DNA from: Limnohabitans sp.
GTDB lineage: Bacteria; Pseudomonadota; Gammaproteobacteria; Burkholderiales; Burkholderiaceae_C
Assembly (NCBI GenBank): GCA_018882835.1
Contig: VERE01000002.1
Coordinates: 1 to 64,000 of the forward strand
DNA length: 64,000 nt
Reading direction: 5' to 3'
Part shown: positions 4,915 to 64,000 of the stretch, in pieces
How the letters are laid out: each line of letters opens with the position of its first letter
Position numbering within the stretch: position 1 is the stretch's first letter
Notes under the pieces: generated by a model
Database searches by the model: none
The model's input: only the letters and a program-made list of their open reading frames with translations
Told to the model about the DNA's origin: nothing
Position numbers and translations under genes: made by a program

Positions 4915-4918
4915 GTGC

Positions 4919-6136: not shown

Positions 6137-6146
6137 GAAAGGGCCA

Positions 6147-7661: not shown

Positions 7662-8146
7662 CAGGGAAGGTACTTTCCAAAATCAGCCGGCAGCACCGGC
7701 TTCAAAAAATGCAACAACTGCGTCAACGCTCGGGCGCCTTCAGACTGCCGCCATGTGGCGGTGTCTTGTATGGGCGTCATACCTGCGATCACCGTGATGA
7801 CCAGCAACACAATCACGCCGCGCAGGCTTCCAAAGACAGCCCCCAGCATACGGTCCAAAACACCCAGGCCCACTGCGGCCACCAACTTCTGCAACACCCA
7901 CCCGGACACAGCCGTCAGCACCAGCACCGCGATGAACACCACCACAAAACCCGCCAGATAACGCAAGCCCTCGCTGGCGCCTTCCATGGGCATGCGCTGC
8001 CCCACCTCGGGCGCAAACATCTGCGCCAGCAAGAAGCCTGCAATCCAGCCCGCCAGGGACAGCACTTCACGCACCAGCCCCCGCCAAACCCCCAACAGCA
8101 TGGACGCCGTCAGAATGGCCAGCAGGATCCAGTCCAGTGCAGCCAT
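7661..8146 (-). CDS. cvpA: CvpA family inner-membrane protein
   Basis: 161 residues with four predicted membrane segments (about 4-22, 28-45, 65-88 and 100-120) and the family N-terminus LDWILLAILTASMLLGVWRG. In E. coli CvpA is needed for colicin V production and envelope stress tolerance; its molecular role is unclear. Its stop overlaps the purF start by one base, and the SPOR gene ends 4 bases upstream of its start. Confidence 0.9.
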   Translation of the reverse strand: MAALDWILLAILTASMLLGVWRGLVREVLSLAGWIAGFLLAQMFAPEVGQRMPMEGASEGLRYLAGFVVVFIAVLVLTAVSGWVLQKLVAAVGLGVLDRMLGAVFGSLRGVIVLLVITVIAGMTPIQDTATWRQSEGARALTQLLHFLKPVLPADFGKYLP

Positions 8147-8150
8147 GCGT

Positions 8151-8813
8151 TCAGAAAGTCAAAAGAGTCGCTTGCAATTGCATGCTCTTGACCTTGGCCA
8201 ATGCTTTTTCAGCCTCTGCTTTGTTGGTATAGGGCCCCATGCGCACACGCGTGCGTTTGCCTTCTTTGGTCTCTGCCAACTGGGTGTAGGTTTTCAAGCC
8301 AGCTTTTTCAAGTTTGGCGCGCACTTCTCGCACCTTGGCGTCTTCTGCATAGGCCCCCACTTGCACCACATAGCGCGGGCTGGCCTCTTCTTTGGTGGCA
8401 GGCGGCGCTTCTGTGGGCTGGGCAGGGGCCAGTGCCACGGTGGGCGCATCTTTGGGGATGGCTGGCGCGGCTGCAATGACTTCTTCTTTGGGGCCCAAGC
8501 TGGCAGCAGGTGCCAGCTCAGCGGGCCTGGTCTCTGCCTCCGTGGGCGCTTTGACCAGCGCAGGCGGCACGGCGCCAGGCGCAAGCTTGTTCTTGTCGGG
8601 AATGTCGATGGGAATATCCACCGAAATGGGGCGCGGTTGGGTGTCAAAAAGTAACGGAAAACCCACCACCGCCAACAAGACCAGAACCGCAGCACCCATC
8701 AAGCGCTGGCGGGCCCGACGCCGCAAGGCTTCAAGGCTCTCTGCAGGGGACGCACTGGCCAGCGCTTCATCGCTACCCACCCGACCCGGCAATCGAAATT
8801 TGAAAAAAGCCAT
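8151..8813 (-). CDS. SPOR-domain membrane protein (DedD-like)
   Basis: 220 residues: a short basic cytoplasmic N-terminus, one membrane anchor (about residues 40-58, LMGAAVLVLLAVVGFPLLF), a long Pro/Ala/Glu-rich periplasmic linker (about 70-140), and a C-terminal SPOR domain (YVVQVGAYAEDAKVREVRAK to the end). SPOR domains bind denuded septal peptidoglycan, so a cell-division role like DedD is likely. It sits between folC and cvpA, as dedD does in E. coli. Confidence 0.88.
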   Translation of the reverse strand: MAFFKFRLPGRVGSDEALASASPAESLEALRRRARQRLMGAAVLVLLAVVGFPLLFDTQPRPISVDIPIDIPDKNKLAPGAVPPALVKAPTEAETRPAELAPAASLGPKEEVIAAAPAIPKDAPTVALAPAQPTEAPPATKEEASPRYVVQVGAYAEDAKVREVRAKLEKAGLKTYTQLAETKEGKRTRVRMGPYTNKAEAEKALAKVKSMQLQATLLTF

Positions 8814-8817
8814 GAAC

Positions 8818-10104
8818 TTAAGTATTCAGATGAGGCGCATCCAAACGGGGGATTCCCCCTAAGAGAATGCCGCCTACCGTGTAGAAGGAACCGAAGACGA
8901 CGATTCTATCAGCGGGGTTTGCCGCAGCAACGGCTGCTTCAAGCGCAGCTTGAGGGTTCGCATGACATGACACGCGGGCATCGGGCCTGAGGCTCAATGA
9001 GTCCCAAGCGCTTTTCAATGCCTCTGCCGAGGCAGCGCGCGGCGTTGGTAAATCGGTGAAGTACCAGGCATCGGCGAGCGGCGCAATGCGGGCCAGCATG
9101 GGTGCCACATCTTTGTCAGCCATGGCCCCCATCACCAGGTGGGTGCAGGGGTAAAAGCCCATCGCGTCCAGGTTCTCAGCCAGCACCGCCACGGCATGCG
9201 CGTTGTGCGCCACATCCAGCACCAGCGCCGGCTGCCCTGGAACGATTTGAAAACGCCCAGGCAAGGACACCATGGCCAGGCCATTGCGAACCGCTTGCGC
9301 GGTGACAGGGATTCGCGACCGCAGGGACTCCAGGGCAGCCAATGCACCAGAGGAATTCATCAGCTGGTTGGCCCCTCGCAAAGCCGGGTATGCCAGACCG
9401 CTGTAGCGGCGACCGCGGCCACTCCATGACCACTGTTGTTTGTCACCCGCGTAGTTGAAGTCGTGGCCCATGCGCCAAAGATCGGCCCCGATCGCCATGG
9501 CACGGTCCAGCACACTTTGGGGTGGCACAGGGTCACTCACGATGGCGGGGCGACCCGTGCGAAAAATACCGGCCTTCTCGCGGCCAATCGTCTCGCGATC
9601 GTTGCCGAGGTAAGCCATGTGGTCCAGGTCCACGCTGGTAACGATGGCGCAATCGGGGTCGATGATGTTGACCGCGTCCAGTCGCCCCCCCAGCCCCACT
9701 TCCAGGATGATCACATCCAGTTGTTTGTCTGCCAACAGACTCAGGATTGCCAAGGTGGTGAACTCAAAGTAGCTCAGCGACACGTCTGCGCGCGCCTGGT
9801 CCACGCGTTCGAAATGCGGCACCAGCACCTCGGGCTCGACAATCTCGCCAGCCACCCGGCAACGCTCCTCAAAATGCACCAGGTGTGGCGAGGTGTACAC
9901 CCCCGTGCGGTACCCGGCCTCTGACAAGATGGCCTCCAGCATGGCGCAGGTCGAGCCTTTGCCATTGGTGCCGGCGACCGTGATCACCGGGCCCTCAAAC
10001 TTTAAAGCCAGTCGGTCCGCCACCGTCTGGACGCGTGCCAACCCCATGTCGATGGCAACAGGATGAAGGCGTTCACAATGGGCAAGCCAGTCGTCAAGAT
10101 TCAT
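8818..10104 (-). CDS. folC: Bifunctional folylpolyglutamate / dihydrofolate synthase
   Basis: A Mur-ligase-type ATP-dependent enzyme of 428 residues that adds glutamate to dihydropteroate and tetrahydrofolate. The P-loop is VAGTNGKGST at about residues 43-52. Further family blocks are YTSPHLVHFEER and DHMAYLGND (metal and substrate binding), with DVAHNAHA in the C-terminal domain. First gene of the minus-strand run ending in gltX; the upstream region is shared with the divergent ArsC-like gene at 10160. Confidence 0.95.
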   Translation of the reverse strand: MNLDDWLAHCERLHPVAIDMGLARVQTVADRLALKFEGPVITVAGTNGKGSTCAMLEAILSEAGYRTGVYTSPHLVHFEERCRVAGEIVEPEVLVPHFERVDQARADVSLSYFEFTTLAILSLLADKQLDVIILEVGLGGRLDAVNIIDPDCAIVTSVDLDHMAYLGNDRETIGREKAGIFRTGRPAIVSDPVPPQSVLDRAMAIGADLWRMGHDFNYAGDKQQWSWSGRGRRYSGLAYPALRGANQLMNSSGALAALESLRSRIPVTAQAVRNGLAMVSLPGRFQIVPGQPALVLDVAHNAHAVAVLAENLDAMGFYPCTHLVMGAMADKDVAPMLARIAPLADAWYFTDLPTPRAASAEALKSAWDSLSLRPDARVSCHANPQAALEAAVAAANPADRIVVFGSFYTVGGILLGGIPRLDAPHLNT

Positions 10105-10159
10105 GCGGGAATTGTCGCCGAGTCTGCGCCTGTGCGCTGAAATCGGGCATCATTGCAGC

Positions 10160-10525
10160 ATGAAAGATACTGCAATTCACGTCTATGGCATTCCCAACTG
10201 TGGCAGCGTCAAGAAAGTGCGTGTGTGGCTGGAAAGCCAAGGCCAAGCCTACCTGTTCCATGACTTCAAAAAAGAGGGCGTCGACCCTGTTGCGCTGGAC
10301 CACTGGCTGCACCAGGCGGGTTGGGAAACGCTGGTGAACCGCAAGGGCACGACCTGGCGTCAACTGGACGCCAACGCGCAAGCCAAGGTCTCCGATGCCG
10401 CCAGCGCGCGCAGCCTGATGCTGGCCCATCCCAGTGTGATCAAACGGCCGGTCTTGGTCGCTGGCGCGGACCGCCAGGTCATTGTGGGAGTCAACGAAGA
10501 AGCCTGGTCCTGCGTTATTTCCTAA
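10160..10525 (+). CDS. ArsC/Spx-family thioredoxin-fold protein (YffB-like)
   Basis: 121 residues starting at the ATG at 10160, where the family's first strand begins (IHVYGIPNCGSVKKVRVWL). The frame is open upstream to 10103 but that part overlaps the folC promoter region. A single N-terminal Cys (NCGSV) replaces a CXXC pair. The fold matches the arsenate reductase/Spx group, and YffB-like members are often glutathione-dependent reductases of unknown substrate. Arsenate reductase activity should not be assumed; a genuine LMW-PTP-type ArsC is encoded at 45418-45933. Confidence 0.8.
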   Translation: MKDTAIHVYGIPNCGSVKKVRVWLESQGQAYLFHDFKKEGVDPVALDHWLHQAGWETLVNRKGTTWRQLDANAQAKVSDAASARSLMLAHPSVIKRPVLVAGADRQVIVGVNEEAWSCVIS

Positions 10526-46337: not shown

Positions 46338-47612
46338 TCAAACCACAGGCACGTCATCCCAATCTGTGGTGTAGTTGGGTGATTTGCGCTCTTGCCGCAT
46401 CTGCCAGCCCTGGTAAGCCCCTTGCGTGGACACCTTCACGGCACCCCGCCCGTAGCGCGCGTTCAAGTGGTCCAGCGCCTGCATCAGCTTGCTGTGGCCT
46501 GGGGGCGAGGCCTCCAGCCAATCGCCCTGCTGATGGGTCACGGGGCTGAGCTCACTCAGCATGACCCCGGCTTTCTTGTACTGGTAGCCCTCGCGAAACA
46601 TTCGCTCACACAAGGCGTCGGCCCACCGGTTGACCACCAGGGTGTCATGGGTGGGCTGCGGCAGGGGGACCGCCATGCTGGGCGAGTACTGCGCAAGGTC
46701 TTTTCGGAAACGGTTCGTCTGCAGAAACACTTGAATGACGGCAGCCTGGCTGTTTTGAGCGCGAAGTTTTGCGCAGGCATTGGCGACAAAGGTGGACAGC
46801 GCATCTTTCAAGACCGGCAATTCTGTGACCATGCTGCCAAACGATCGGCTGGCGATGATGTTCTGCTTGTCGGCTGGCACCTCCTCCAGCTCGATGCACG
46901 GCGTTTCTTGCAATTCCCTTTGCGTTTTTTCCATGACAACGCCAAACTCGGCGCGCAAACTGGGGATGTGCGCTTCTCGCAAATCCCAAACGGTTTCCAC
47001 GCCATGCGCAAGCAGCCGCTGCGTCAATTTGCGCCCCACGCCCCAAACTTCGCTGACGGGGATGCGTTTCAGCAAGGCGGTTTTCTGCGCATCATTCAAG
47101 GCGTTGTAATTGAAGACACCTTGGGATCGGGGGTGTTTCTTGGCTACGTGGTTGGCCAGCTTGGCCAGCGTCTTGGTGGGGCCAATGCCCACGCACACGG
47201 GCATGCCGGTCCACATCCTCACGCGCTCGCGCATGGCGTAGCTCAGCGCGCGCAGGTTCGGCGCGCCCGTGAGGTCGACAAAGCTTTCGTCAATGGAGTA
47301 CACCTCCTGATGCGGAGAAAACTCACCCAGAATGCGCATCACCCTGTTGGACATGTCGGCATACAAGGCGTAGTTGCTGCTCAGCGCCAGAATGCCATGC
47401 GCTTTCGCCAACGACTGGCACTCAAACCACGGCTGGCCCATCTTCACGCCCAAGGCTTTGGCTTCGTTCGAGCGTGAAACCACGCAGCCATCGTTGTTGG
47501 ACAGCACCACCATGGGCACGCGCGCCAGGTCGGGCCGAAAAATTCGCTCGCAGCTGACGTAAAAATTGTTGCAATCTACCAACGCCAGGGCCTGGACGTG
47601 CGCGCGCGCCAT
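46338..47612 (-). CDS. umuC: Error-prone DNA polymerase V catalytic subunit
   Basis: A 424-residue Y-family polymerase. Catalytic residues are in [13 protein letters not shown] near the N-terminus and [12 protein letters not shown] at about 100-111; the steric-gate Tyr is in NNFYVS. It copies damaged DNA after UmuD cleavage. It starts 4 bases after umuD stops and is controlled by the SOS box at 48069. Confidence 0.96.
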
Positions 47613-47616
47613 GACA

Positions 47617-48057
47617 TCAATAAAGCTTGTGCAGGTTGCGTGTGACCACGCCCCAGATGAGCAACTCTTCGCCGTCCTTGAGTGTGATGGGCGGGTACAA
47701 CGGGTTTTCTGCGATCAGCTTGACCACCCCGCCACGACGGTACAGGCGCTTGACCGTGAAGTCGTCGTTCAAGACGGCCAGCACGATGTTGCCGTGCTTG
47801 GCCTCGATGGAGCGGTCGACCAGCAGCTCGTCACCTTCGTAAATACCAATGCCGTTCATGGAGTCGCCCTTGACCCGGAAAATAAAGGTGGCCTCCTTGT
47901 TGCGAATCAGGTGCTCGTTGAGATCAATGCGTTTGCGCGTGTGGTCGGCGGCGGGCGAAGGGAAACCGGCCCGCACCGTCCATGCGCACATGTCCAGCCA
48001 GACCTTGGTGTCTGGCAAAAATACGGGTTGGGGTGTGGAAATGGCAGGTATCGTCAT
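47617..48057 (-). CDS. umuD: UmuD, self-cleaving SOS mutagenesis protein
   Basis: 146 residues of the LexA/UmuD (S24) family. The cleavage site is Ala-Gly in [12 protein letters not shown] at about residues 30-31; the catalytic Ser is in GDSMNG and the Lys in DFTVKRL. RecA-induced cleavage gives UmuD', which pairs with UmuC. The SOS box lies 12 bases upstream of the ATG. Confidence 0.96.
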
Positions 48058-48068
48058 CTCGTCAAATA

Positions 48069-48088
48069 TACTGTATTTATATACAGTA
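48069..48088. promoter_or_regulatory. LexA (SOS) box of umuDC
   Basis: TACTGTATTTATATACAGTA differs from the classic E. coli consensus TACTGTATATATATACAGTA at one base. It is 11 bases upstream of the umuD start codon. Confidence 0.93.
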
Positions 48089-48107
48089 TATCAAGCATAT
48101 GCTTTCC

Positions 48108-48743
48108 CTAAGGCCTTGGCGCAGCCTCTGCCCGAAGCTGCGGCATGTGTTCCCAGCGCATGAGCTCTGCGGCCTTGGCATGATCCGCACTGAGCCAGGC
48201 CGCGTGCAGCTCTGGCGCAATGATCACGGGTGTGCGCTTCTCGTCACCTGGCTTGTGGAATTGGCACATCACAGGATGCGCGTCTGCGTTCACGGTCAGC
48301 ATCGAAAAGCTGACCACCCCCTCGCCCGTTGCAGGGTGCGTCCAACGGTCCCAAAGGCAAGCAATGCCGAAGGGCTCACCGCAGGCCAATTCAATTTTCC
48401 AGCGCACCGCCTTGCCTGACGAGTAGCTCGGTTCGAAGAAATGATCGACCAGCACCAAGCCCCACTGGCGATGCCTCCACGGTGAGCGGTAGCTGGGTTT
48501 TTCGGCGGCGGTCTCACTGCGCGCGTTGTAGGTGTGCCGGGCAATCTTGTCGTCTTTCGCCCAAGCTGGAATCAGCCCAAACCGGGCCAAGCCACACGCA
48601 ACGCGGCCTGACTGATGGCTTTTGACAACCAAGGGCGCGGGAAAGCCGGGATAAGACTCTGCGGGGTAATCTGTGGGCAAATCGACCCCCAGCTTCTCCT
48701 TGACCCATTGGGCACGTTGCGTTGGCGTGAAGTTAGTGCACAA
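48108..48743 (-). CDS. SRAP-family protein (YedK/HMCES-like abasic-site shield)
   Basis: 211 residues. The catalytic Cys must be residue 2 because it becomes the N-terminus and crosslinks to abasic sites: MCTNF. This fixes the start as TTG at 48743. Further active-site blocks are YNARSETAAEKPSYRSPW, FFEPSYSSGKAVRW and HPVMCQFHKPGDEKRTPVII (the His and Glu sites). It protects single-stranded DNA with abasic lesions. It is upstream of umuD on the same strand, a common neighbourhood for damage-tolerance genes. Confidence 0.92.
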   Translation of the reverse strand: MCTNFTPTQRAQWVKEKLGVDLPTDYPAESYPGFPAPLVVKSHQSGRVACGLARFGLIPAWAKDDKIARHTYNARSETAAEKPSYRSPWRHRQWGLVLVDHFFEPSYSSGKAVRWKIELACGEPFGIACLWDRWTHPATGEGVVSFSMLTVNADAHPVMCQFHKPGDEKRTPVIIAPELHAAWLSADHAKAAELMRWEHMPQLRAEAAPRP

Positions 48744-48839
48744 GCTGTTGACTCACATCTAGCGAGATGGGTGACATGCGTCCGGTGTCGGGCGCACTGG
48801 CCCTGTCTGTCATGGATAGGCTCGCAAGCTTACAGTGCC

Positions 48840-49706
48840 TCAGGTCTGCCCTTCAGGCTCCAGGGGCATCGGATACTCTTCGGCATTGCAGACCATGCCT
48901 CTTTTGGAGAAGTCCCAGCGGGGCGGTGCAAATATATCCACCAACACCCCCGGCGTATCGGTGTTGCGACTGGTGTGCACGACCTTGGGCGGCACAATCA
49001 ACAACGAGGGGCTGCCCATTTGCTGGGCTTCGTCCTCGCGCCACAAGGTCATGTCAGGTCCCCAGGGGTAGCGAAGGTGATGGACGTAGGTGCCAGACAA
49101 GGCCAAAGAGCCTTGCTCGAAATCATCATGGCTGTGAGGGCTGAGCTTTCGCACATCACGCGGCACGGTGCGCTTCATCAAGGGATTCACCATCAGCTTG
49201 CAACTGCGAAAGACACGCATTTGGCTGCCCTCACTGGCGTAATTCGCCAGTGGGTAGTGGCGCAATCGATATCCACCGACGGGCTCGGGCCAGGCCACCA
49301 AGGGGCTGACATCGGGATTAGGCACTTGGTATGTGGCATGGTTATCGGCAAGCATGAGCACATCGGTCACATCGCTGGAGAAGATGCGCACGAGCAAGCC
49401 CGCGCCCGTGGCAACCTCCACGCGACTGTTGCCGGGCGGGACAATCGTCAGGCTGTCGGCCTCGGCCTTGAGTGTCTCGCGCCCCGCTTGTATGTTGACG
49501 CACAGGCCAGGGGTCTCGGGGACCAACAGCACATACTCATCCAGGTTGTCGCGCACCAGGACATCGCCCGCTTGGGCTTGCGACACCACAACCACAAAAT
49601 TGGCGCCACGTGTGACCCAACCGGGGCAGGTATCTCCTGGCAGCGAACGAGGCGCACTGGCATGGTGACGGGCATAAGTAGGTTGTTGCGATGGCAGCAA
49701 GGTCAT
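48840..49706 (-). CDS. Cupin-fold protein with two cupin-like modules
   Basis: 288 residues from the ATG at 49706 (AGAGGAATTGTC before it). The N-terminal half looks like a degenerate cupin (LVPETPGLCVNIQAG, IVPPGNSRVEV) and the C-terminal half is a clear one with metal His/Glu: SPHSHDDFEQGSLALSGTYVHH ... LLIVPPKVVHTSRN. The family is unknown to me; a dioxygenase or isomerase is possible. Last gene of the nine-gene minus-strand cluster. Confidence 0.68.
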   Translation of the reverse strand: MTLLPSQQPTYARHHASAPRSLPGDTCPGWVTRGANFVVVVSQAQAGDVLVRDNLDEYVLLVPETPGLCVNIQAGRETLKAEADSLTIVPPGNSRVEVATGAGLLVRIFSSDVTDVLMLADNHATYQVPNPDVSPLVAWPEPVGGYRLRHYPLANYASEGSQMRVFRSCKLMVNPLMKRTVPRDVRKLSPHSHDDFEQGSLALSGTYVHHLRYPWGPDMTLWREDEAQQMGSPSLLIVPPKVVHTSRNTDTPGVLVDIFAPPRWDFSKRGMVCNAEEYPMPLEPEGQT

Positions 49707-49722
49707 GACAATTCCTCTGGAT

Positions 49723-50442
49723 TCATGCGGTGATGGCAATGGCTTGCGCAGCCTGGCGCAACAAGGTTTGGTCTGATGCAACGATGAACCAATTGGCTCC
49801 CAGCGGCTCAAATTGCGCGCGCTCTGCTGTGCCGGCCACATGCATGCCAGCAATCTTGCCGGCGCGATGGGCGACGGCCAGGACATGCTGTGTGGCCGCA
49901 GTCACTTGGTCGTCCCGGGAGTTCTCCAGGCCCTTGGACAAGGCCAGGTCGGCGCGCCCCACGAACAATCCGGCCACACCAGGCTCGGCCGCAATGGCTT
50001 GTGCCTCTTGCACAGCCGCTGCCGATTCGATCTGGCAAATGACCTGTGCTTCATCACCGACCCGCAAAGCGTCTTTCATGCCCATGCTGCCGTAGGCTGC
50101 AAAGCGCGGCGAGCCGGAATAGCCTCTGTTGCCGCCACGGTAACGCGCCATGGCTACCACTTCGCGAGCCTGCGCGGCACTGTCCACATGCGGCACCAGC
50201 AAGCCATGCGCGCCGATATCCAAGGCAGAAAGGATCACCGAGGGGTTGATCTCGGCAATCCGGATGAACACCTTCAAATGACTGGCCCGGCCAGCCATGA
50301 CCATCAAGTCCAGCATGGCGCGATCCAAGGGCGCATGCTCTGCGTCCAGGCAAACGAAATTCAGAGCGGTGGTGCCCAGCACTTCGACCACATGCGGCGA
50401 GGCAGTTTTGACAAAGGTGCCAATCTGGCTTTGAAGACTCAT
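49723..50442 (-). CDS. HpcH/HpaI-family class II aldolase
   Basis: 239 residues with the family core: FVCLDAEHAPLDRAMLDLMV (catalytic His region), ALDIGAHGLLVPHV, VICQIESAAAV and GLFVGRADLAL. Members use a divalent metal to split 4-hydroxy-2-oxo acids into pyruvate (or oxaloacetate) and an aldehyde. In the cluster it probably makes the C-C cleavage. Confidence 0.9.
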   Translation of the reverse strand: MSLQSQIGTFVKTASPHVVEVLGTTALNFVCLDAEHAPLDRAMLDLMVMAGRASHLKVFIRIAEINPSVILSALDIGAHGLLVPHVDSAAQAREVVAMARYRGGNRGYSGSPRFAAYGSMGMKDALRVGDEAQVICQIESAAAVQEAQAIAAEPGVAGLFVGRADLALSKGLENSRDDQVTAATQHVLAVAHRAGKIAGMHVAGTAERAQFEPLGANWFIVASDQTLLRQAAQAIAITA

Positions 50443-50460
50443 GGCGGTGCTTTCAGGAGG

Positions 50461-51087
50461 TCATTTGGGTGGCTTTTGAAGTTGCACCCGCGTGTGCAGC
50501 GTGCCCAGTTCGGCATAAAGGGGCCCGCCCAAGCGGGCAATCGGTCGCATCTTGACACTGTCGATGTAGCGACCATCAAAGACCGACGAAGCGATGTGAA
50601 AGGTCAATATTTCCCCAATGTAGAGGGTGTTCAAACCACGCCCAAGGGGAATGGAGCGCTCCAGCCGGCATTCCATCTGAATCGGCGATCGCGCCACACG
50701 CGGCACCGCAACACTTTGGCCCGGCAACAGTTCGATGCCCAAGGCTTCCACCTCGCTCACGTCTGGCGGATACTCCGCGCTGGACGCGTGCATGAGGTCC
50801 ATGTTGTCCACGGTAGAGACATTCACCACAAACTCACCCGTCTCCAAAATGTTGCGTGCAGTGTCCTTGAGCACGCCCTCCCTGTTGCCAATGTTGACGG
50901 CCAGCATGGGCGGGCTGTGTGCCACATAGTTGAACGAACTGAAGGGCGCGACATTGACGACGCCGGCATTGCTTCGCGTGGTGATCCAGGCGACAGGCCG
51001 GGGCACGACGGCGCCCACCAACAACCGATAGGCTGTGGTGGTGTCCATCGTGGTCGCATCCAACGAGGTGAAGTGTGTGTCAGACAT
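50461..51087 (-). CDS. Flavin-reductase-domain protein
   Basis: 208 residues from the ATG at 51087. FMN-binding flavin-reductase-like fold: LLVGAVVPRPVAWITTRSNAGVVNVAPFSSFN at its start, TFHIASSVFDGRYID at its end. The type with the PRPVAWITT motif commonly reduces or modifies a small-molecule substrate rather than supplying flavin to a monooxygenase; which is true here is unknown. Confidence 0.85.
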   Translation of the reverse strand: MSDTHFTSLDATTMDTTTAYRLLVGAVVPRPVAWITTRSNAGVVNVAPFSSFNYVAHSPPMLAVNIGNREGVLKDTARNILETGEFVVNVSTVDNMDLMHASSAEYPPDVSEVEALGIELLPGQSVAVPRVARSPIQMECRLERSIPLGRGLNTLYIGEILTFHIASSVFDGRYIDSVKMRPIARLGGPLYAELGTLHTRVQLQKPPK

Positions 51088-51103
51088 GGCGTGTTTTTTA
51101 AAC

Positions 51104-52048
51104 TCAAGGTTTGTGATGGGTGCCACCCTTGACGAAAACACGCCGTCCGGTGTCATGGAAAAGGGCTTGCTTTTCCGCATCATTGAGCAGTTTTGCGGAG
51201 TCCAGTGCGCGCTGCACCATGTCTTCGTAAGTCCCCGACGAGGTGCCAATGTCCGAACCCCACATGATGCGGTCGGCACCGTACATGTCCGTGGCACGTC
51301 GCAACACTTTTTCCGCGGGGATACCCGCTTCGCGGCAAATGTCCAGGTTGATCGAGGTCCATTTGAACGACATGTTGGCAATGGGCGCGAGCGTTTCGTA
51401 GCGCTCATCCAAACCAAAATGATCCCCCTCCTCCATTTCTGGCTCCAGAAGATGGTCCAGCACAATGCGCACATTGGGAAACGCCTTGGAGAGCTCAATC
51501 AAGGTGGGAATGGAAGGCCCGCCGCCCCCCGTCGCCAAGACCTCCAGGTCCATGACCAGGCCGTAGTCGTTGGCGACAGCCCAGGTTTTCAAGGCCTGCG
51601 TCGAATTGAGCCAAGGCATGCTGCCATCGGGCTCGCGGCCGCCGAACAAACGCACACCCGCAAGCTGGTTCTTCTCAATGTAGTGCTTGACCAGATCGGG
51701 CGTGTCAGCCGCTTCGGCATCCAGGATCACCACGGCCGAAAAAATGTCAGGGTAGCGGTCGGAAGAATCCAGAATGTAGCTGTTGTCGTAGCGGTAGATC
51801 ATCCGCTTTTGCACCGCCACAGCCCCGTCGACATTCTGCGCTTGCATCCAGGTCAGCATGCGCGAAACATCGGGAATTTCGTTGATCGGGTTGGGGCCGT
51901 GGTGCCCGCCGGGCTTGCCGATGACGCCTGGCGCGCGGTAAGGGGCATTGGCTGCCCGTTGCATGGGGTTGCGAGGGTAGGCCTGTTGGTCATCAGCGAC
52001 CAAATGGGCGTGGGCATCAAACAGCAAGGGGCGTTGAGAATCGGTCAT
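51104..52048 (-). CDS. Amidohydrolase-2 family TIM-barrel hydrolase
   Basis: 314 residues from the ATG at 52048. Metal-binding motif DAHAHL near the N-terminus, HLLE and the terminal Asp in MWGSDIGTSSG. The family includes 2-pyrone-4,6-dicarboxylate lactonase and nonhydrolytic decarboxylases. The context (aldolase, dehydratase, tricarboxylate receptors) favours a lactonase or decarboxylase on a polycarboxylic acid; that is inference. Confidence 0.87.
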   Translation of the reverse strand: MTDSQRPLLFDAHAHLVADDQQAYPRNPMQRAANAPYRAPGVIGKPGGHHGPNPINEIPDVSRMLTWMQAQNVDGAVAVQKRMIYRYDNSYILDSSDRYPDIFSAVVILDAEAADTPDLVKHYIEKNQLAGVRLFGGREPDGSMPWLNSTQALKTWAVANDYGLVMDLEVLATGGGGPSIPTLIELSKAFPNVRIVLDHLLEPEMEEGDHFGLDERYETLAPIANMSFKWTSINLDICREAGIPAEKVLRRATDMYGADRIMWGSDIGTSSGTYEDMVQRALDSAKLLNDAEKQALFHDTGRRVFVKGGTHHKP

Positions 52049-52067
52049 ATGAATGGCGGGAAAGTAC

Positions 52068-53063
52068 TCAGTTGGCAACGACTTTGGCAGCGGCAATCAC
52101 CTTTTGCCATTTCAAAGAATCTTCCTGGATCATCTGGTGCAGCAACTCGGGCGAACCCAAATTGACCACAGCGCCATAGGTTTGAAGTTTGGCCCGCCCG
52201 TAGGTGGACCCTACGATGGCATTGATTTCCGTGTTCAATTTTTTGGCGATCTCGGTCGGTAGCCCTGCGGGCCCCACAATGCCAAACCAGACCGTTGCAA
52301 CCAAATCAATGCCCTGTTCTTTGGCCGTTGGAATTTCTGGCAAACCAGGATAGCGAGCGGAAGAGGTGACGGCCAGCCCGCGCAACTTGCCAGCACTCAA
52401 ATTGGGAATAAAGGCTGTGATCGGGGCCGACAAAGCCTGGATGTTGCCGCCCAAAAGATCGGTCATGGCTGGCGTGTCACCCCGAAAGGGGATGTGGGTG
52501 AGCGGCGTCTTGGTCACGATCGACAGCTGTTCCAAGGCCAAATGGCCAATCGTGCCATTGCCGGGCTGCCCCACGGTGAACGACTGGGGGTTGGCCTTGG
52601 CCTGGCGCAAGAATTCTTTCAAATTCATGGCGCTCACCTTGGCTGGGTTGCTGGTGATGACCAACGGAATTTCGCAAACCAGGGCGATGGGTGACAAGTC
52701 CTTGTCCGAATCGAACGGCATGGTCTTGTACAAAAATTTGTTGTTCACCAGGGGGCCTGACGTGGACAACCCAATGGTGTAGCCATCGGCTGGCGCTTTG
52801 GCAACGGCGTCGGTCCCAATGTTGCCCCCTGCCCCTGCGCGGTTATCGACGATAAATTGCTGGCCGAATTTCTCGCTCAGGCCTTGCGCTATGAAACGCG
52901 CGACCAAATCAGTGCTGCCCCCTGCTGGAAAGGGCACCACGATGCGCACAGGCTTGCTGGGCCATGGCATGTTTTGAGACCACGACTGCAAAGGCCAGGA
53001 ACAGAGCAAGCTCAAGGACACGACAAGCTTGGTCAGGGTCCGGCGAGGGAATTGGATGTGCAT
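52068..53063 (-). CDS. Bug-type tripartite tricarboxylate transporter receptor (4)
   Basis: 331 residues from the ATG at 53063 (the frame is open further upstream). Signal peptide with LVVSLSLLCSWPLQSWSQ; ligand loops RIVVPFPAGGSTDLVARF and IVDNRAGAGGNIGTDAV; interface block IPFRGDTPAMTDLLGG. One of two receptors in the cluster. No permease is encoded here, so the transporter's membrane part must be elsewhere or the receptor serves as a sensor. Confidence 0.92.
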   Translation of the reverse strand: MHIQFPRRTLTKLVVSLSLLCSWPLQSWSQNMPWPSKPVRIVVPFPAGGSTDLVARFIAQGLSEKFGQQFIVDNRAGAGGNIGTDAVAKAPADGYTIGLSTSGPLVNNKFLYKTMPFDSDKDLSPIALVCEIPLVITSNPAKVSAMNLKEFLRQAKANPQSFTVGQPGNGTIGHLALEQLSIVTKTPLTHIPFRGDTPAMTDLLGGNIQALSAPITAFIPNLSAGKLRGLAVTSSARYPGLPEIPTAKEQGIDLVATVWFGIVGPAGLPTEIAKKLNTEINAIVGSTYGRAKLQTYGAVVNLGSPELLHQMIQEDSLKWQKVIAAAKVVAN

Positions 53064-53094
53064 AAGCAGCCTTTTCTGATGAGGGGCAGATGTG

Positions 53095-53739
53095 TCAGCC
53101 CAATGAACCCACGACTCGTGCCTTGGCCATCTGCGCCAGGATATCTGGCATGCGGGCTTGGGCGCGGGTCGCAACGGATTGATAAATGCTCTGCCCCTGT
53201 GCATCAATCGCCACGGTCGCAGGGCCCAAAGATTGAACATCCAATGTCAGCAATCGAAATTGCGAAATGTATTCGGTCCAGTGCATGCTGTGTACGCCAC
53301 GCAGGGCCCGTGACAGCAAAGGGCTGCCACCGCCCAGAAACGAAAGGTATACGCAACCACATTCTTGGAGGGTTGCCACGCTTTCATCGTTCAGGCCGCC
53401 CTTGCCACCCACGATGCGCGGACCCAGACCACGCACAATTGCAGGCATCCAGGCGTTGTAGCGGGTGCTGGTGCTGGGGTTGAGGTACACGGGCTCACAC
53501 AAGCCGTCACGCTCTCGGACATAGGTACTCAAGTGCAAAAAAGCGCCGCCTCGAATGTCCACTGGCAAGGGCTTTCCTTGCACAGCGGCCTCGGCCATGC
53601 GCTGGTGCGTCGGAATGCCAATGCTCACGGTCACCCTGCCACTGAGGCACACCAGTTCGCCGACACGCAATGCGCGCACACGGTGCTCGTCAAGGGGCAA
53701 TGCCAACTCATGAACAGCGCTGTGCGGCAACTTATTCAT
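53095..53739 (-). CDS. Tartrate dehydratase / class I fumarase-type beta subunit
   Basis: 214 residues from the ATG at 53739, overlapping the alpha subunit by 8 bases. Matches the C-terminal domain of class I fumarases and TtdB: GELVCLSGRVTVSIGIPTHQR, GPRIVGGKGGL and FLGGGSPLLS. It completes the active site formed by the alpha subunit. Hydratase of a dicarboxylic acid such as tartrate, fumarate or mesaconate; the specific substrate is not determinable. Confidence 0.87.
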   Translation of the reverse strand: MNKLPHSAVHELALPLDEHRVRALRVGELVCLSGRVTVSIGIPTHQRMAEAAVQGKPLPVDIRGGAFLHLSTYVRERDGLCEPVYLNPSTSTRYNAWMPAIVRGLGPRIVGGKGGLNDESVATLQECGCVYLSFLGGGSPLLSRALRGVHSMHWTEYISQFRLLTLDVQSLGPATVAIDAQGQSIYQSVATRAQARMPDILAQMAKARVVGSLG

Positions 53740-54604
53740 AGAGCATTTCCACCCGCCCGTCATGGTGAATGCGGGCTGCTGTGCGCCGGTTGATCCAGCA
53801 ATTCATGCTGACCGCTATGGGCACAAAGCCATGCCCTGCCGAGTAGTCCACGTTCACTGCCATGGCACTGCAGTCGCCCGAGGTCCCCATGGCGCCCAGG
53901 CCCATTTGGTTGATCGCCTCCAGCAACCTGCGCTCCATGCCTGCCAGCATGGGATCGGGATGGGCGAGGCCATGCGGTCTTAGCATGGCTTCCTTTGCCA
54001 GCTTGGTGGCATGGTCGAGCGAACCGCCAATGCCCACCCCCACCACAATCGGCAGACAGGGTTGGGAGCCCGCACGCAAAATCACATCGAGCACATATTT
54101 TTCAACCTGCTCGATGGTCGGATACACAAAGGTCTCGGCCGCCTCCCACCGTCCAGTGCCCATGGCCTTGGGAGAACAGACAATGTCCATGTAATCTGCA
54201 TCGTCAATCAAGTCGAATGCAACGATCGGAATGTCTTTGCCCGCATAGCTGCGTGCATGCGTCAATGGATGGGTGACCATTTTCAAAATGGGAGGCTGGA
54301 TGTTGGCTACCAACTCCGCAAACCCGTCTGTGATGGCCTGGCGTACCTTGCCAGAAAATTGGACACGCGTGCCGATCTTGACGCTGTAGGTGGGAATGCC
54401 GACATCGCTGCAAACCAGGCTGCCTTGCTGGTGCGCCAGATCGGCGCTTTCAACCATCATCATGATGGTGTGACGCGCGGTCGCGTCTGTTTCGCGATGC
54501 TGCGCCTGGGCCAAGACGCTGCGCGTGTCATCGGGTATTTTTTTCAGCGCCCTCTCATACAACAAGGCGCTCACCGACTTGATGGTGTCCGCTTCAATGG
54601 GCAT
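53732..54604 (-). CDS. Tartrate dehydratase / class I fumarase-type alpha subunit
   Basis: 290 residues from the ATG at 54604 (another in-frame start at 54664 is less likely). Three Cys suited to a 4Fe-4S cluster lie in LVCSDVGIPTY, SQPCLPIVVGVGIGGS and TSGDCSAMAV, with the substrate block MGTGRWEAAETFVYPT. With the beta subunit it forms an oxygen-sensitive hydro-lyase. A perfect hairpin separates it from matB. Confidence 0.88.
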   Translation of the reverse strand: MPIEADTIKSVSALLYERALKKIPDDTRSVLAQAQHRETDATARHTIMMMVESADLAHQQGSLVCSDVGIPTYSVKIGTRVQFSGKVRQAITDGFAELVANIQPPILKMVTHPLTHARSYAGKDIPIVAFDLIDDADYMDIVCSPKAMGTGRWEAAETFVYPTIEQVEKYVLDVILRAGSQPCLPIVVGVGIGGSLDHATKLAKEAMLRPHGLAHPDPMLAGMERRLLEAINQMGLGAMGTSGDCSAMAVNVDYSAGHGFVPIAVSMNCWINRRTAARIHHDGRVEMLYE

Positions 54605-54673
54605 GAAAAACACTGCGTGTGAGAGCCATGGGAGGATGATCTCTACTTTCAGCCCAAGCATCAAGCGGTATTT

Positions 54674-54702
54674 CCATACTTTTCAATGGGTGAAAAGTAT
54701 GG
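54674..54702. other. Strong hairpin between matB and the dehydratase genes
   Basis: CCATACTTTTCA (54674-54685) and TGAAAAGTATGG (54691-54702) are exact complements around a 5-base loop, in the 159-base gap inside the cluster. No T run follows on either strand, so it is more likely an mRNA-processing or stability element than a terminator. Confidence 0.6.
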
Positions 54703-54763
54703 CAATGCTGACAGAGGATCGCCGCGCTGCGCTCGCGCAACCGGCAGGGGCCAGGCAGGCAGG

Positions 54764-56305
54764 CTAGGCGAAAAGAGATTTGTGCTGTTCTCGCAGCAGG
54801 TTCTTCTGAACTTTGCCCATGGTGTTGCGAGGCAACTCCGGCACCACAAAACAGCGCTTGGGAATTTTGAAGTTGGCCAGGCGTGACTTGAGATCGGCAA
54901 CGATGGCATCGGGATCGAGCTTGGCCCCTGGCTTGGCAATCACCACGGCCACGCCCACTTCGCCAAAGTCGGGATGAGGCACGCCCACCACCGCACTTTC
55001 AGCCACGCCGGCCATGTCATTGATGAAGCCTTCAATTTCAGCTGGATACACGTTGTAGCCCCCGCTGATGATCAAGTCTTTGCTGCGGCCCACGATGGTG
55101 ACATAGCCGCGCGCATCGATCTTGCCCACATCGCCCGTCTTGAAATACCCATCTGCGGTGAACTCTTCGGCCGTTTTCTCTGGCATGCGCCAGTAACCTT
55201 TAAAGACATTGGCACCCTGAACTTGAATGCCGCCAATTTCGTCAACGCCCAGCGGTTGGCCTGCGTCGTCAAGCACGCGCAAACGCACCCCAGGCAAAGG
55301 GAAGCCGACCGTACCGCCGCGTCGTTCGCTTTGGTTGTTGTAGCGAGCGTCCGCGCGGTAAGGGTTGGACGTCAGCATGGCCGTTTCGCTCATGCCATAA
55401 CGCTCCAAGATCGTATGGCCTGTGCGCTGCTGCCATGCCTGAAATGTTTCGATCAGCAAGGGCGCAGAGCCGGCAATGAACAAACGCATGCGTGCAGCCG
55501 CCTGCTGGTTAAGCGCGGGCTCGGCCAGCATGCGCACATACAAAGTGGGGACGCCCATGAAGACGGTGGCACGGGGCAAATCTGCAATCACACGCTTGGG
55601 ATCGAATTTGGCATGCCACAGCATCTTGCTGCCGTTGAGCAAGGCACCGTGAATGGCCACGAACAGTCCATGCACGTGGAAGATAGGCAAAGCGTGAATC
55701 AACACATCACCTGGCTGCCAGCCCCAGTATTCTTTCAACATCACGGCGTTGCTGAGCAGGTTGTCATGCGTCAGCATGGCGCCTTTGCTGCGCCCGGTGG
55801 TTCCGCTGGTGTACAGAATCGCGGCAAGGTCATCGGCTTGGCGCAGCGCCACTGTGTGGCGATCGTCGCAGTGCGAGGCACGCTCCAGCAATGAGCCGGT
55901 GCGGTCGTCGTTCAAAGTGAAGACATGGCGGGTGCCGGCCTTGAAGGCGATTTTGCTGACCCAACCGAAATTGCGGCCCGAGCACACCACCACCGCAGGT
56001 TCCGCATTGCCAATGAAATACTCGATTTCCGCGCTTTGGTAAGCGGTGTTGAGTGGCAAAAAAACGTGCCCAGCCCGCAAGGTTGCCAAATACAGAATCA
56101 GGGCTTCAACCGATTTTTCGACTTGAACAGCGATCCTGGCGTGGGCGGGCACGGCCAATGCGTCAAACAAATTGGCCATCATGGCACTGGCCCGGTCCAG
56201 ATCACGCCAGCTGTAGCACAGGCCGTCCTCTGTTTCTACAGCGACGGCGTCAAGGTCTTTCGGAAAAGCCGCAAGCAAGGCGGCAAACAGGTTGTGGTTA
56301 CGCAT
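54764..56305 (-). CDS. matB: Malonyl-CoA synthetase (MatB-like acyl-CoA synthetase)
   Basis: 513 residues. AMP-binding signature ILYTSGTTGRSKGAMLTH, the MatB-type stretch ALPIFHVHGLFVA, then ERYGMSETAMLTSNPY and the C-terminal catalytic Lys in RNTMGKVQKNLLRE. MatB makes malonyl-CoA (or a methyl homologue) from the free acid, CoA and ATP. In this cluster it suggests malonate or a close analogue as an end product. Downstream of Bug receptor 5. Confidence 0.85.
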   Translation of the reverse strand: MRNHNLFAALLAAFPKDLDAVAVETEDGLCYSWRDLDRASAMMANLFDALAVPAHARIAVQVEKSVEALILYLATLRAGHVFLPLNTAYQSAEIEYFIGNAEPAVVVCSGRNFGWVSKIAFKAGTRHVFTLNDDRTGSLLERASHCDDRHTVALRQADDLAAILYTSGTTGRSKGAMLTHDNLLSNAVMLKEYWGWQPGDVLIHALPIFHVHGLFVAIHGALLNGSKMLWHAKFDPKRVIADLPRATVFMGVPTLYVRMLAEPALNQQAAARMRLFIAGSAPLLIETFQAWQQRTGHTILERYGMSETAMLTSNPYRADARYNNQSERRGGTVGFPLPGVRLRVLDDAGQPLGVDEIGGIQVQGANVFKGYWRMPEKTAEEFTADGYFKTGDVGKIDARGYVTIVGRSKDLIISGGYNVYPAEIEGFINDMAGVAESAVVGVPHPDFGEVGVAVVIAKPGAKLDPDAIVADLKSRLANFKIPKRCFVVPELPRNTMGKVQKNLLREQHKSLFA

Positions 56306-56326
56306 GAAAGGGCTAAAGAGTAAAGT

Positions 56327-57310
56327 TCAATCGAGCTTGGCGCCTGAGGCTTTGACCACCGCTGCCCAGCGCTTGATTTCGTTGCTGACAAAACTGCCAA
56401 ATTGTGCGCCCGTGATGCTGGGAAATTCTGCACCGTTGCTGGCCCAGATGGCTTTGATCTCGTCGGTGGCAGCCAGGCGCTTGGTTTCTTCCAACAGGCG
56501 CGCCTGAATGTCGGCGGGTGTTCCCCGGGGCGCCCACAAACCATACCAGGTGGTGACGGTGTAATCCGGCAAACCCAATTCGGCCGCGCAAGGCACATCC
56601 GGAAAAGAAGGATTGCGCTTGCTACCAGACACCATCAGGGCCTTGATGCGCCCTGCCTTGATGTGCTGCGCAGACGAGCCCAGGCCGTCAAACATCATGT
56701 CGACGTTTCCGGCAATCAAGTCTTGCAAGGCAGGGCCCGCGCCACGGTAAGGGATGTGGGTGATGAAGGTCTTGGTCTGCAGTTTGAACAACTCACCGGC
56801 CAAATGGTGCGATGTGCCCCCCCCTGCGGATCCGTAATTGAAACGCCCCGGGCTTTTGCGTACCGCCTCCATGAAGGCCTTGTAGTCACCTTGCAAGTTC
56901 TTGGGGTTCACCACCAGAACTTGCGGCACCATGGCTACCAAAGCCAGGGGCACAAAGTCTTTCTCCAAGTCGTAATCGAGCTTGGCGTACATGGCTGGCG
57001 CAATCGAGTGGTGAACCGCCCCCATGAAAAAAGTGTAGCCGTCTGGCGCAGCTTTGGCAGCCACGCCGGCGCCCAAATTGCCGCCCGCGCCGCCCCGGTT
57101 GTCAATCACCAGTTGTTTGCCGGTGAGTTTGGAAAACTGTGCGGAGTAGGGTCGGGCAAAAGCATCTGTCCCACCGCCCGCAGGGAACGGAACCACCAGC
57201 GTCACGGCCTTGTTGGGCCAGCCAGGCTCCGCACGAACGCTCCACGCCTGAGTGGCGGCCCCCAGGGCCGCCCACCGCAAAACAGCACGTCGTTGCATTG
57301 GACTCTTCAT
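56327..57310 (-). CDS. Bug-type tripartite tricarboxylate transporter receptor (5)
   Basis: 327 residues from the ATG at 57310, which has AAGGAGAC nine bases upstream. The signal has a twin-arginine look (QRRAVLRWAALGAATQAWSVRA), then TLVVPFPAGGGTDAFARP and LVIDNRGGAGGNLGAGV; interface block IPYRGAGPALQDLIAG. First gene of the nine-gene cluster, 46 bases after lgt. Ligand unknown. Confidence 0.92.
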   Translation of the reverse strand: MKSPMQRRAVLRWAALGAATQAWSVRAEPGWPNKAVTLVVPFPAGGGTDAFARPYSAQFSKLTGKQLVIDNRGGAGGNLGAGVAAKAAPDGYTFFMGAVHHSIAPAMYAKLDYDLEKDFVPLALVAMVPQVLVVNPKNLQGDYKAFMEAVRKSPGRFNYGSAGGGTSHHLAGELFKLQTKTFITHIPYRGAGPALQDLIAGNVDMMFDGLGSSAQHIKAGRIKALMVSGSKRNPSFPDVPCAAELGLPDYTVTTWYGLWAPRGTPADIQARLLEETKRLAATDEIKAIWASNGAEFPSITGAQFGSFVSNEIKRWAAVVKASGAKLD

Positions 57311-62498: not shown

Positions 62499-63098
62499 AT
62501 GACTAACCCTCTGCCCGGCCGCTCCCACAGCAGCACCTTGCCTCGCGTGATCTTCGCCAGCCGCTGGCTGCAACTACCGCTTTATTTGGGACTGATTGCA
62601 GCTCAAGGCTTGTATGTCTTTCATTTCTGGGTTGAGCTGACGCACTTGCTGGAAGCCGCTTTTGGCAATCAGGCGGCGCTGCAAGCGCTGATCACCGGCA
62701 TGGGCTACAAAAGTGAAGCGCCTGTGACCTCGCTCAATGAAACCATCATCATGCTGGTGGTCTTGGGTCTGATCGATGTGGTCATGATCTCCAACCTGCT
62801 CATCATGGTGATCGTGGGCGGCTATGAAACCTTTGTCTCCCGCATGTACCTGGAGAACCACCCGGACCAGCCCGAGTGGCTCAACCATGTGAATGCCTCT
62901 GTGCTGAAAGTGAAACTGGCGACCGCCATCATTGGCATTTCATCCATCCACCTGCTGAAGACCTTCATCAATGCGGCCAACTACGATGTCAAGGTGTTGA
63001 TGTGGCAGACCCTGATTCACCTGACCTTTCTCCTTAGCGCGCTGGCCATTGCCTACGCCGACAAGCTTTTGCACCCCCCCTCCAACTCGGACCACTGA
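62499..63098 (+). CDS. UPF0114/YqhA family membrane protein
   Basis: 199 residues with three or four membrane segments. Recognisable YqhA blocks are [47 protein letters not shown] and [21 protein letters not shown]. Function unknown. It ends one base before the fumarase start, so the two are probably cotranscribed. Confidence 0.9.
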
Positions 63099-63099
63099 C

Positions 63100-64000
63100 A
63101 TGACCACCATCCGACAAAACGACCTGATCGAATCGATTGCCGCTGCCCTGCAGTACATCAGCTATTACCACCCCAGCGACTACATCGAGCATCTGGCGCG
63201 CGCTTACACCCTGGAACAGTCGCCGGCGGCCAAAGATGCCATCGCCCAAATTTTGACCAACAGCAAGATGAGTGCGGTTGGCCATCGTCCCATTTGCCAA
63301 GACACGGGCATCGTCAACGTGTTTCTGAAAATCGGCATGGATGTGCGACTCGAGGGCTTCTCCGGCAGCCTGGAAGATGCCATCAACGAAGGTGTTCGCC
63401 GTGGCTACAACCACCCCGATAACACGCTGCGCGCCAGCGTGGTGGCAGACCCGCAGTTCGCGCGCAAGAACACGCAGGACAACACCCCGGCTGTGATCTT
63501 CACCGAGATCGTGCCGGGCAACAAACTGGACATCACCGTCGCCGCCAAGGGCGGTGGCAGCGAGAACAAGTCCAAAATGGTCATGCTCAACCCCAGCGAC
63601 AGTGTGCTCGACTGGGTGCTGAAAACCGTGCCCACCATGGGCGCGGGCTGGTGTCCTCCCGGCATGCTGGGCATTGGCATTGGCGGGACCGCCGAGAAAG
63701 CGGTTCTGATGGCCAAAGAAAGCCTGATGGAGGACCTCAACATGTATGAGCTTCAGCAAAAGGCCGGCAAAGGCGAGAAGCTGACTCAGGTGGAAGAGCT
63801 TCGCTTGGAACTGTACGAAAAGGTCAACGCGCTGGGCATTGGCGCGCAAGGCCTGGGCGGTCTGACCACCGTGCTCGATGTGAAGATCAAGATGTACCCC
63901 ACCCACGCTGCCAGTAAGCCCGTGGCCATGATTCCCAACTGCGCCGCAACACGCCATGCCCACTTTGTGATGGATGGCTCAGGCCCGGTTTATTTGGACG
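63100..64000 (+). CDS. Class I fumarate hydratase (partial, runs off right edge)
   Basis: Open from the ATG at 63100 to the window end, 300 codons. The alpha domain shows RPICQDTGIVNVFLK, PTMGAGWCPPGMLGIGIGGT and IPNCAATRHAHFVMDG; the three Cys match 4Fe-4S ligands of FumA-type enzymes. Converts fumarate to malate in the citric acid cycle. The beta domain should lie beyond the edge. It is distinct from the split dehydratase at 53.1-54.6 kb. Confidence 0.93.
   Translation, partial: MTTIRQNDLIESIAAALQYISYYHPSDYIEHLARAYTLEQSPAAKDAIAQILTNSKMSAVGHRPICQDTGIVNVFLKIGMDVRLEGFSGSLEDAINEGVRRGYNHPDNTLRASVVADPQFARKNTQDNTPAVIFTEIVPGNKLDITVAAKGGGSENKSKMVMLNPSDSVLDWVLKTVPTMGAGWCPPGMLGIGIGGTAEKAVLMAKESLMEDLNMYELQQKAGKGEKLTQVEELRLELYEKVNALGIGAQGLGGLTTVLDVKIKMYPTHAASKPVAMIPNCAATRHAHFVMDGSGPVYLD

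Follow-up and report, generated by a model that had tools for sequence, protein, structure and literature searches.

The window analysed here is a stretch of 64,000 nucleotides (nt) of DNA from Limnohabitans sp. (contig VERE01000002.1, positions 1 to 64,000), and the subject of this report is a run of nine minus-strand open reading frames (ORFs) at 48840-57310. A preliminary description had taken these ORFs for one catabolic cluster, and ORF reading together with Pfam and NCBIfam searches bore out both the nine ORFs and the families named for them. The measured gaps, which are 21, 159, -8, 31, 19, 16, 18 and 16 nt from bug1 down to cupin, likewise agree with its statement that the genes lie less than 35 nt apart save between matB and ttdA. 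The seven genes from ttdA to cupin are referred to below as the module. From the upstream end, the features are:

56327..57310, minus strand: bug1, TctC-type receptor, 327 amino acids (aa), PF03401; linked to matB and outside the module
54764..56305, minus strand: matB, malonyl-CoA synthetase, 513 aa, NF005702; outside the module
54605..54763, no strand: junction of chromosomal block and module, 159 nt, placed by gap measurement and comparison of matB loci
53732..54604, minus strand: ttdA-like, class I fumarase/tartrate dehydratase alpha subunit, 290 aa, PF05681 (202 bits)
53095..53739, minus strand: ttdB-like, beta subunit, 214 aa, overlapping ttdA by 8 nt, PF05683 (62 bits)
52068..53063, minus strand: bug2, TctC-type periplasmic solute receptor, 331 aa, PF03401 (202 bits)
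51104..52048, minus strand: amh, amidohydrolase-2 family, 314 aa, proposed lactone/pyrone hydrolase, PF04909 (80 bits)
50461..51087, minus strand: flav, flavin reductase-like, 208 aa, PF01613 (97 bits)
49723..50442, minus strand: hpaI, HpcH/HpaI-family aldolase, 239 aa, proposed retro-aldolase, PF03328 (100 bits)
48840..49706, minus strand: cupin, 288 aa and thus of two-cupin length, proposed hydratase of 2-oxo-dienoate type intermediates (motif and linkage)

The Pfam matches are above their cut-offs (AMP-binding 254, Fumerase 202, Fumerase_C 62, Amidohydro_2 80, Flavin_Reduct 97 and HpcH_HpaI 100 bits), and the two Bug receptors scored 204.6 and 201.9 bits against TctC/Bug PF03401 (cut-off 27). 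The strand run is continued by lgt, 46 nt upstream of the nine genes, and by a SRAP-like gene 96 nt downstream, so that the borders of the nine genes are not set by strand or spacing.

The cluster is best explained as two units joined at the 159-nt gap between matB and ttdA. The first of these, bug1-matB, is ordinary chromosome of the host family. MatB scored 863.7 bits against the malonyl-CoA synthetase model NF005702 (cut-off 558), and matB was identified in 97 of 120 sampled family genomes, its own included. Thirty of the matB matches were returned as loci, and a bug1 relative lies within 1.5 kb of matB in 23 of the 29 besides the window (62-81% identity over the part seen). Gene order is also kept: lgt, bug1 and matB follow one another in a genome of the same genus (G080; lgt-bug1 distance 2.3 kb), and genome G105 has the window order acs, cytochrome c, ilvD, lgt, bug1, matB (lgt-bug1 2.5 kb). 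The same chromosomal block occurs in G042 without bug1, while G087 has bug1-matB and G047 matB alone. No module gene was found in the 20-kb matB regions of these five genomes; one 25% match to ttdA in the region of G080 belongs to another gene. In the three genomes for which both were located, the module and matB lie apart: they are on contigs C6 and C9, respectively, in G105, on C22 and C53 in G082, and about 1 Mb apart on C1 in G056.

These comparisons bear on the suggestion of the preliminary description that the nine genes form one pathway, with MatB turning malonate or an analogue into its CoA ester. All nine genes do share a strand with short gaps, and malonate semialdehyde would be a product if the substrate were 2-pyrone-6-carboxylate. 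Against this, bug1 and matB occur together without the module throughout the family, and a close matB is absent from the stretches seen of all ten other amh loci (best identity 27-31%). The host genome also has one malonyl-CoA decarboxylase match, on a different contig, so ordinary malonate use can explain matB. The unity of the nine genes was rejected because bug1-matB is found without the module and the module, in the stretches seen, without a close matB; malonate capture fell on the same evidence, and we regard a single nine-gene pathway as extremely improbable. As a conserved set, the claim holds for the seven genes from ttdA to cupin and fails for bug1 and matB, which are backbone. Same-strand spacing alone can merge unrelated operons into a seeming pathway. 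The join itself may be an assembly artefact, which is conceivable because the host is a draft genome with an estimated contamination of 5.15%. Composition gives no mark of a join, with G+C of 56-61% per kb over 48-58 kb and GC3 of 0.66-0.74 per gene.

The second unit, ttdA-ttdB-bug2-amh-flav-hpaI-cupin, is a separate and patchily distributed module. An amh ortholog was identified in six of 250 sampled family genomes and five of 399 genomes of the order (this genome included in both), and in this genome only among 274 of the class and 84 of the genus; it was also found in two of seven genomes of the genus of G082 and in the single genome of that of G105. With a looser threshold seven of the 84 genus genomes match, the other six being distant (E ~1e-31 to 1e-34). 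The phylum sample gave three genomes in 299, namely this one and two at ~37% identity, and a scan of named genomes gave one locus (L008). We infer that the module was acquired.

Ten other loci carry an amh at least 66% identical over the aligned parts. All seven genes occur in window order in L008, L009 and L012, and L010 follows this order up to the aldolase gene, within which its contig stops. The set is complete but differently ordered in L011, with a PanE-family gene between cupin and ttdA; it is complete in L022 too, where amh is inverted and two MaoC genes and a CoA ligase are inserted. In L013 amh (interrupted)-flav-hpaI-cupin are present with a bug2 relative nearby, and there is no ttdAB in its 20 kb. 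Relatives of bug2 (53-79% identity) were found in L008, L009, L010, L011, L012, L013 and L022. A module was not supported at the remaining loci: at L023 amh is the only module gene in 12.6 kb and has two other Bug genes as neighbours, the contig of L024 ends inside amh with a FAD-hydroxylase-type gene on the other side, and the amh of L025 lacks its middle and lies 0.4 kb from a contig end. Among plasmid records, 37 have amidohydrolase relatives, all below 60% identity, and the best of these (Sphingobium baderi, L028; the only one inspected) showed no module neighbour by the window queries. The amh of L013 (~9490-10406, genome G056) is interrupted by a stop codon; the matB match of G056 also contains a stop, so that sequence quality may be the cause.

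The gene set had been described as an uncommon one, and this stands: the module is conserved, and among the papers listed by literature searches that combined several of its families, in a collection with few subscription papers, none was seen to name this set. The portions available of PMC6449761 and PMC8963497 do not describe this gene set.

The window cupin has no Pfam or NCBIfam match at 1e-3 and scored 13.6 bits against Pfam Cupin_2 (cut-off 27.2), a model matched at E<=1 by four of 17 cupin members (best E 2.4e-4). H191, H193, E197 and H244 are invariant in all 17 members and agree with the cupin metal motif, which we take to be HxHx(3-4)E plus a later PxxxxH. No match to PF01557 (FAA family, MhpD type) was seen in the window cupin at 1e-3, and none is listed for the 17 members at E<=1. 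An AlphaFold2 model built from two rows had a mean pLDDT of 42, with 50-80 reached by parts of residues 20-120 only, too poor for a fold comparison, and a scan of viral contigs with the cupin alignment gave no relative.

The cupin and HpaI-type aldolases travel together. A cupin probe gave 27 matches on plasmid records (38-49% identity among the 25 listed), of which 16 were fetched, and ten places in nine genomes of a 299-genome sample. These and the amh loci made up 32 cupin loci, all scored with a single query set, some queries of which came from scored loci; the loci are partly non-independent (two Paracoccus plasmids are among them, for instance, as are two genomes of the same genus and two places in G916). 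In 27 of the 32 loci, some of them from Alphaproteobacteria and Actinomycetota, an HpaI-type aldolase is found no more than 10 kb from the cupin, and in 22 the two share a strand and are separated by 500 nt or less. Also near the cupin are members of the amh group in 13 loci (seven by the window amh, six by two other query subfamilies), DUF6282 in 15, IclR in 23, flav in eight, ttdA in seven and an extradiol-type dioxygenase in four. When self-queries are left out, the aldolase counts of 27 and 22 are kept, as are the 24 loci with an amidohydrolase-type protein, and IclR falls to 21 and ttdA to six. The control comprised 36 stretches (286,413 bases), namely 29 matB loci, five longer matB regions overlapping some of these and the rest of the window, and gave no match for the cupin, HpaI, amh, DUF6282, flav, extradiol or IclR queries; it serves as a guide and not as a rate, because it covers one family and is smaller than the 585 kb of non-window cupin loci.

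DUF6282, which we read from family knowledge as amidohydrolase-like, has an HxH and further His and Asp positions invariant in seven rows. An amidohydrolase-type protein, either of the amh group or DUF6282, lies within 10 kb of the cupin in 24 of the 28 loci that have no dioxygenase. The run of L031 (Parasedimentitalea), consisting of DUF6282, aldolase, cupin, HIBADH-family dehydrogenase, flavin reductase, ttdA and ttdB, closely resembles that of the window, DUF6282 standing where the window has amh (ttdB 39% identical).

The four remaining loci (L039, L040, L051 and L058) combine the cupin-aldolase pair with an extradiol-type dioxygenase, called by Pfam LigB or by Glyoxalase with BphC_D1 or Diox-like_N. 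L039 (Rhodococcus opacus strain 9) has the order flavin reductase, NTF2-like, alpha/beta hydrolase, BphC-type dioxygenase, cupin, aldolase; in L051 (R. opacus G13) a VOC-type dioxygenase and an alpha/beta hydrolase stand beside the pair, and in L058 (Pseudosulfitobacter) both are near the cupin, so that three of the four loci have the hydrolase. A LigB-type dioxygenase immediately precedes the pair in L040 (Sphingopyxis granuli). No amh or DUF6282 was found within 10 kb in these four loci. The FAA-hydrolase family, which includes the usual hydratase of meta-cleavage pathways, has no match in the plasmid records of L039 and L058, and in those of L040 and L051 its closest member is ~13 kb and ~41 kb from the cupin, respectively. 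With FAA-family members either missing from these records or no closer than ~13 kb, the cupin would suit the vacant place of the hydratase. Because dioxygenase, amh and DUF6282 replace each other across cupin loci, we infer that the product of amh or DUF6282 is an intermediate of the type otherwise formed by dioxygenase and hydrolase together, and that this intermediate is hydrated by the cupin before retro-aldol cleavage.

Our preferred reading, to which we give very nearly even weight, is that the module is an acquired lower pathway joined to the bug1-matB backbone, in which a lactone or pyrone is opened, the product is hydrated by the cupin and retro-aldol cleavage yields pyruvate and a beta-oxo acid. 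Bug2 would deliver a small carboxylated lactone or pyrone, and amh would open the ring hydrolytically to a 2-oxo-enoate/2-hydroxy-dienoate. The cupin would add water to give a 4-hydroxy-2-oxo acid, and retro-aldol cleavage of this acid by the HpaI-type enzyme would yield pyruvate plus either a beta-oxo acid or a semialdehyde; a side reaction peculiar to the substrate may fall to TtdAB and the flavin reductase-like protein. Opening of a ring or lactone, hydration and aldol cleavage had been suggested from the start and remain the best reading, with the acquisition, substrate, reactions and step order drawn from the gene content, linkage, spread and replacement pattern observed.

A broader proposal, which we advance tentatively as a real possibility somewhat short of probable, is that the cupin family is a widespread hydratase replacing the FAA-family hydratase of meta-cleavage pathways. 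With HpaI-type aldolases and amh or DUF6282 openers it would form an undescribed, interchangeable core that opens, hydrates and cleaves carboxylated pyrones or lactones in the host's taxonomic order, in Alphaproteobacteria and in Actinomycetota. If true, this would give a function to the cupin family and to DUF6282 and would explain many pairs of a hypothetical protein and an aldolase beside TRAP, Bug or dioxygenase genes. The cupin, and not an FAA-family enzyme, would then be the hydratase in several meta-cleavage operons, such as those of the Rhodococcus opacus plasmids.

A published precedent exists for such a series. In the lower pathway of lumichrome/riboflavin degradation (LumW-LumY-LumX; PMC12746152), a carboxy-pyrone is opened by a hydrolase that depends on cobalt, the opened product is hydrated by an enzyme annotated as a cupin, and an aldolase releases pyruvate and acetoacetate, which places lactonase, cupin hydratase and retro-aldolase in series. 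The main text of that paper does not contain the term 'flavin reductase', whereas the window module has flav. Another likeness is with the lower pathway of meta-cleavage, MhpB-MhpC-MhpD-MhpE: L039 has alpha/beta hydrolase and dioxygenase followed by cupin and HpaI-type aldolase in the hydratase and aldolase places. The window module differs in having no dioxygenase, and its cupin and HpaI-type aldolase would replace the MhpD and MhpE families.

Several observations weigh against the preferred reading. No HpaI-type aldolase lies within 10 kb of the cupin in five of the 32 loci (L026, L027, L032, L057 and L064; in L026 and L027 one flank was short). At L032, L052, L053 and L057 the queries picked up neither a dioxygenase nor an opener of amidohydrolase type, and the L032 cupin is placed among genes of sugar-acid type. 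An IclR gene was not found within 10 kb of the window cupin, in contrast to the 23 loci having one, and the flav of L031 is just 34% identical to that of the window. The dioxygenase count was not blind: three of the four loci supplied queries and only L051 was found by another's query, so the count falls to one when self-queries are left out. Furthermore, the dioxygenase of L051 is divergent, the aldolase of L058 is 7 kb from the cupin, and the FAA-family search of the dioxygenase hosts covered only their plasmid records. TtdAB is near just seven of 32 cupins, and TtdAB and flav fit no assigned step. LumY is a protein of 16 kDa, against 288 aa for the window cupin, and the two are likened by description and not by sequence. 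The closest aldolase model, GarL, works on sugar-acid products, and amh is distant from characterised lactonases, scoring 47.2 bits against the L-fucono-1,5-lactonase model NF052480 (cut-off 400).

The main rival is a sugar-acid/aldarate route. Here amh would act on an aldonolactone, TtdAB and/or the cupin would dehydrate or isomerise, and the HpaI-type enzyme would cleave a 2-keto-3-deoxy-aldarate to pyruvate and tartronate semialdehyde. The best or only curated models above 1e-3 include fuconolactonase for amh, and GarL and 2-dehydro-3-deoxyglucarate aldolase for hpaI, and tartrate dehydratase is among the fumarase-type models matched. Beside the L032 cupin are genes of the mandelate-racemase family and RraA, together with an aldehyde dehydrogenase whose closest model is that of GucD, alpha-ketoglutaric semialdehyde dehydrogenase (542 bits, cut-off 770), and the HIBADH-family dehydrogenase of L031 scored 106 bits against tartronate semialdehyde reductase and 111 against HIBADH, both below cut-off. 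However, all equivalog models of this route are far below their cut-offs. For hpaI the scores were 135.4 bits with GarL TIGR03239 (cut-off 406.75) and 113.6 bits with HpaI aldolase TIGR02311 (368.8); the aldolase shares with these enzymes the HpcH_HpaI domain (PF03328, 100 bits, cut-off 25), has 1dxe as its closest solved structure and falls below both equivalog cut-offs. The route also leaves the association of cupin and aldolase with extradiol-type dioxygenases in four loci unexplained, and we consider it unlikely.

TtdA and TtdB are members of their Pfam families (PF05681 and PF05683) and remain below the cut-offs of the L(+)-tartrate dehydratase model NF006084 (137 bits, cut-off 365) and of NF006082 (78 bits, cut-off 264), respectively. 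The other rows of the alignments are 64-76% identical to the window TtdA and 62-74% to the window TtdB. As TtdAB belongs to a hydro-lyase family and is in module order in L008, L009, L010 and L012, TtdAB could itself be the hydratase in the window's module, with the cupin acting as a tautomerase, isomerase or decarboxylase. This explanation, which we judge distinctly unlikely, is at odds with the small share of cupin loci that have TtdAB, with the gene group of L013, which does without it, and with the four dioxygenase loci, which have no TtdAB within 10 kb and no FAA-family member within ~13 kb. TtdAB of this clade was also seen without a cupin in the stretch covered (L036, L067, L068 and L069), near 2-hydroxyacid, Ldh-type or other NAD(P)-dependent oxidoreductases, and may therefore serve a separate branch.

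The closest solved relatives of flav are 3bpk (NTA monooxygenase component B) and 4z85 (2-nitrobenzoate nitroreductase), and no partner monooxygenase was found in the module. Flav and TtdAB may form a branch of their own. On two Roseomonas plasmids (L036 ~4188-10515 and L068 ~4434-10517), a flavin reductase gene occurs with an aconitase-family gene, a Bug receptor and TtdAB; the stretches seen contain no cupin or aldolase, and the flavin reductase is 62% identical to flav in L036 and assigned by annotation in L068. A plus-strand ORF of the window at 63025-63999 is 90% identical to the stretch of G080 that matches ttdA at 25%. It is probably the chromosomal class I fumarase, and TtdAB would then be a separate paralogue.

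The pyrone dicarboxylate pathway, LigI-LigJ-LigK, follows the same logic of lactonase, hydratase and aldolase, and LigI is a lactonase of the amidohydrolase superfamily. The known 2-pyrone-4,6-dicarboxylate/4-oxalomesaconate route with its enzymes replaced (amh for LigI, TtdAB or the cupin for LigJ and HpaI for LigK), giving pyruvate and oxaloacetate, was thus weighed as a further explanation and is in our judgement highly unlikely. In the alignment of six rows (70-81% identical to the window amh), H13, H15, H199 and D266 are invariant, and presumably have a metal role. Two PDB entries matched amh at E<=0.01, both weakly: 4dlf, 'Amidohydrolase 2' (E 3e-4), and 2ffi, a putative pyrone-dicarboxylate hydrolase (E 8e-4). 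The second match favours the route, and Bug-type uptake would suit a polycarboxylate. Nevertheless, the weak 2ffi alignment shows different residues following the conserved His and Asp (DHFGRP versus DHLLEP and GSDWPH versus GSDIGT), and the window aldolase is of the HpaI family, which we take to be distinct from that of LigK. Enzymes for beta-oxo acids, which occur near other cupins, would moreover be superfluous if oxaloacetate were made.

These neighbouring enzymes, scored without a control set, suit a yield of pyruvate and a beta-oxo acid like that of the LumW/LumY/LumX series, and name no substrate. L034 has a 3-oxoacid CoA-transferase above the subfamily cut-off, the HIBADH-family dehydrogenase of L031 also belongs here, and beta-keto acid cleavage enzymes are present in L038 (below cut-off) and, by annotation, in L040 and L058. 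In L055 (11749-12675) such an enzyme is above the cut-off of the 3,5-dioxohexanoate model and lies within a DUF6282-aldolase-cupin run. Opening of triacetic acid lactone gives 3,5-dioxohexanoate, and the L055 enzyme thereby again suggests pyrones. Malonate-semialdehyde dehydrogenase was rejected as a clue: the aldehyde dehydrogenases of L013, L027, L032, L059 and L060 are below every cut-off among the 25 best models of each, and were for this reason not used to name a product. Bug receptors were dropped as clues to the substrate, since the 3.28 Mb host genome holds 108 PF03401 matches, bug2 being one of them, which makes single Bug genes poor indicators.

Scans for sigma-70-like promoters gave no site in 54550-54850 or 48700-48900. 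One terminator-like site was found in 54550-54850 (0.4 expected), at 54783-54798 on the other strand and inside matB. Directly downstream of the module, at 46338-48743, are genes resembling a Y-family polymerase (umuC-like), an S24 peptidase and SRAP, named by sequence impression.

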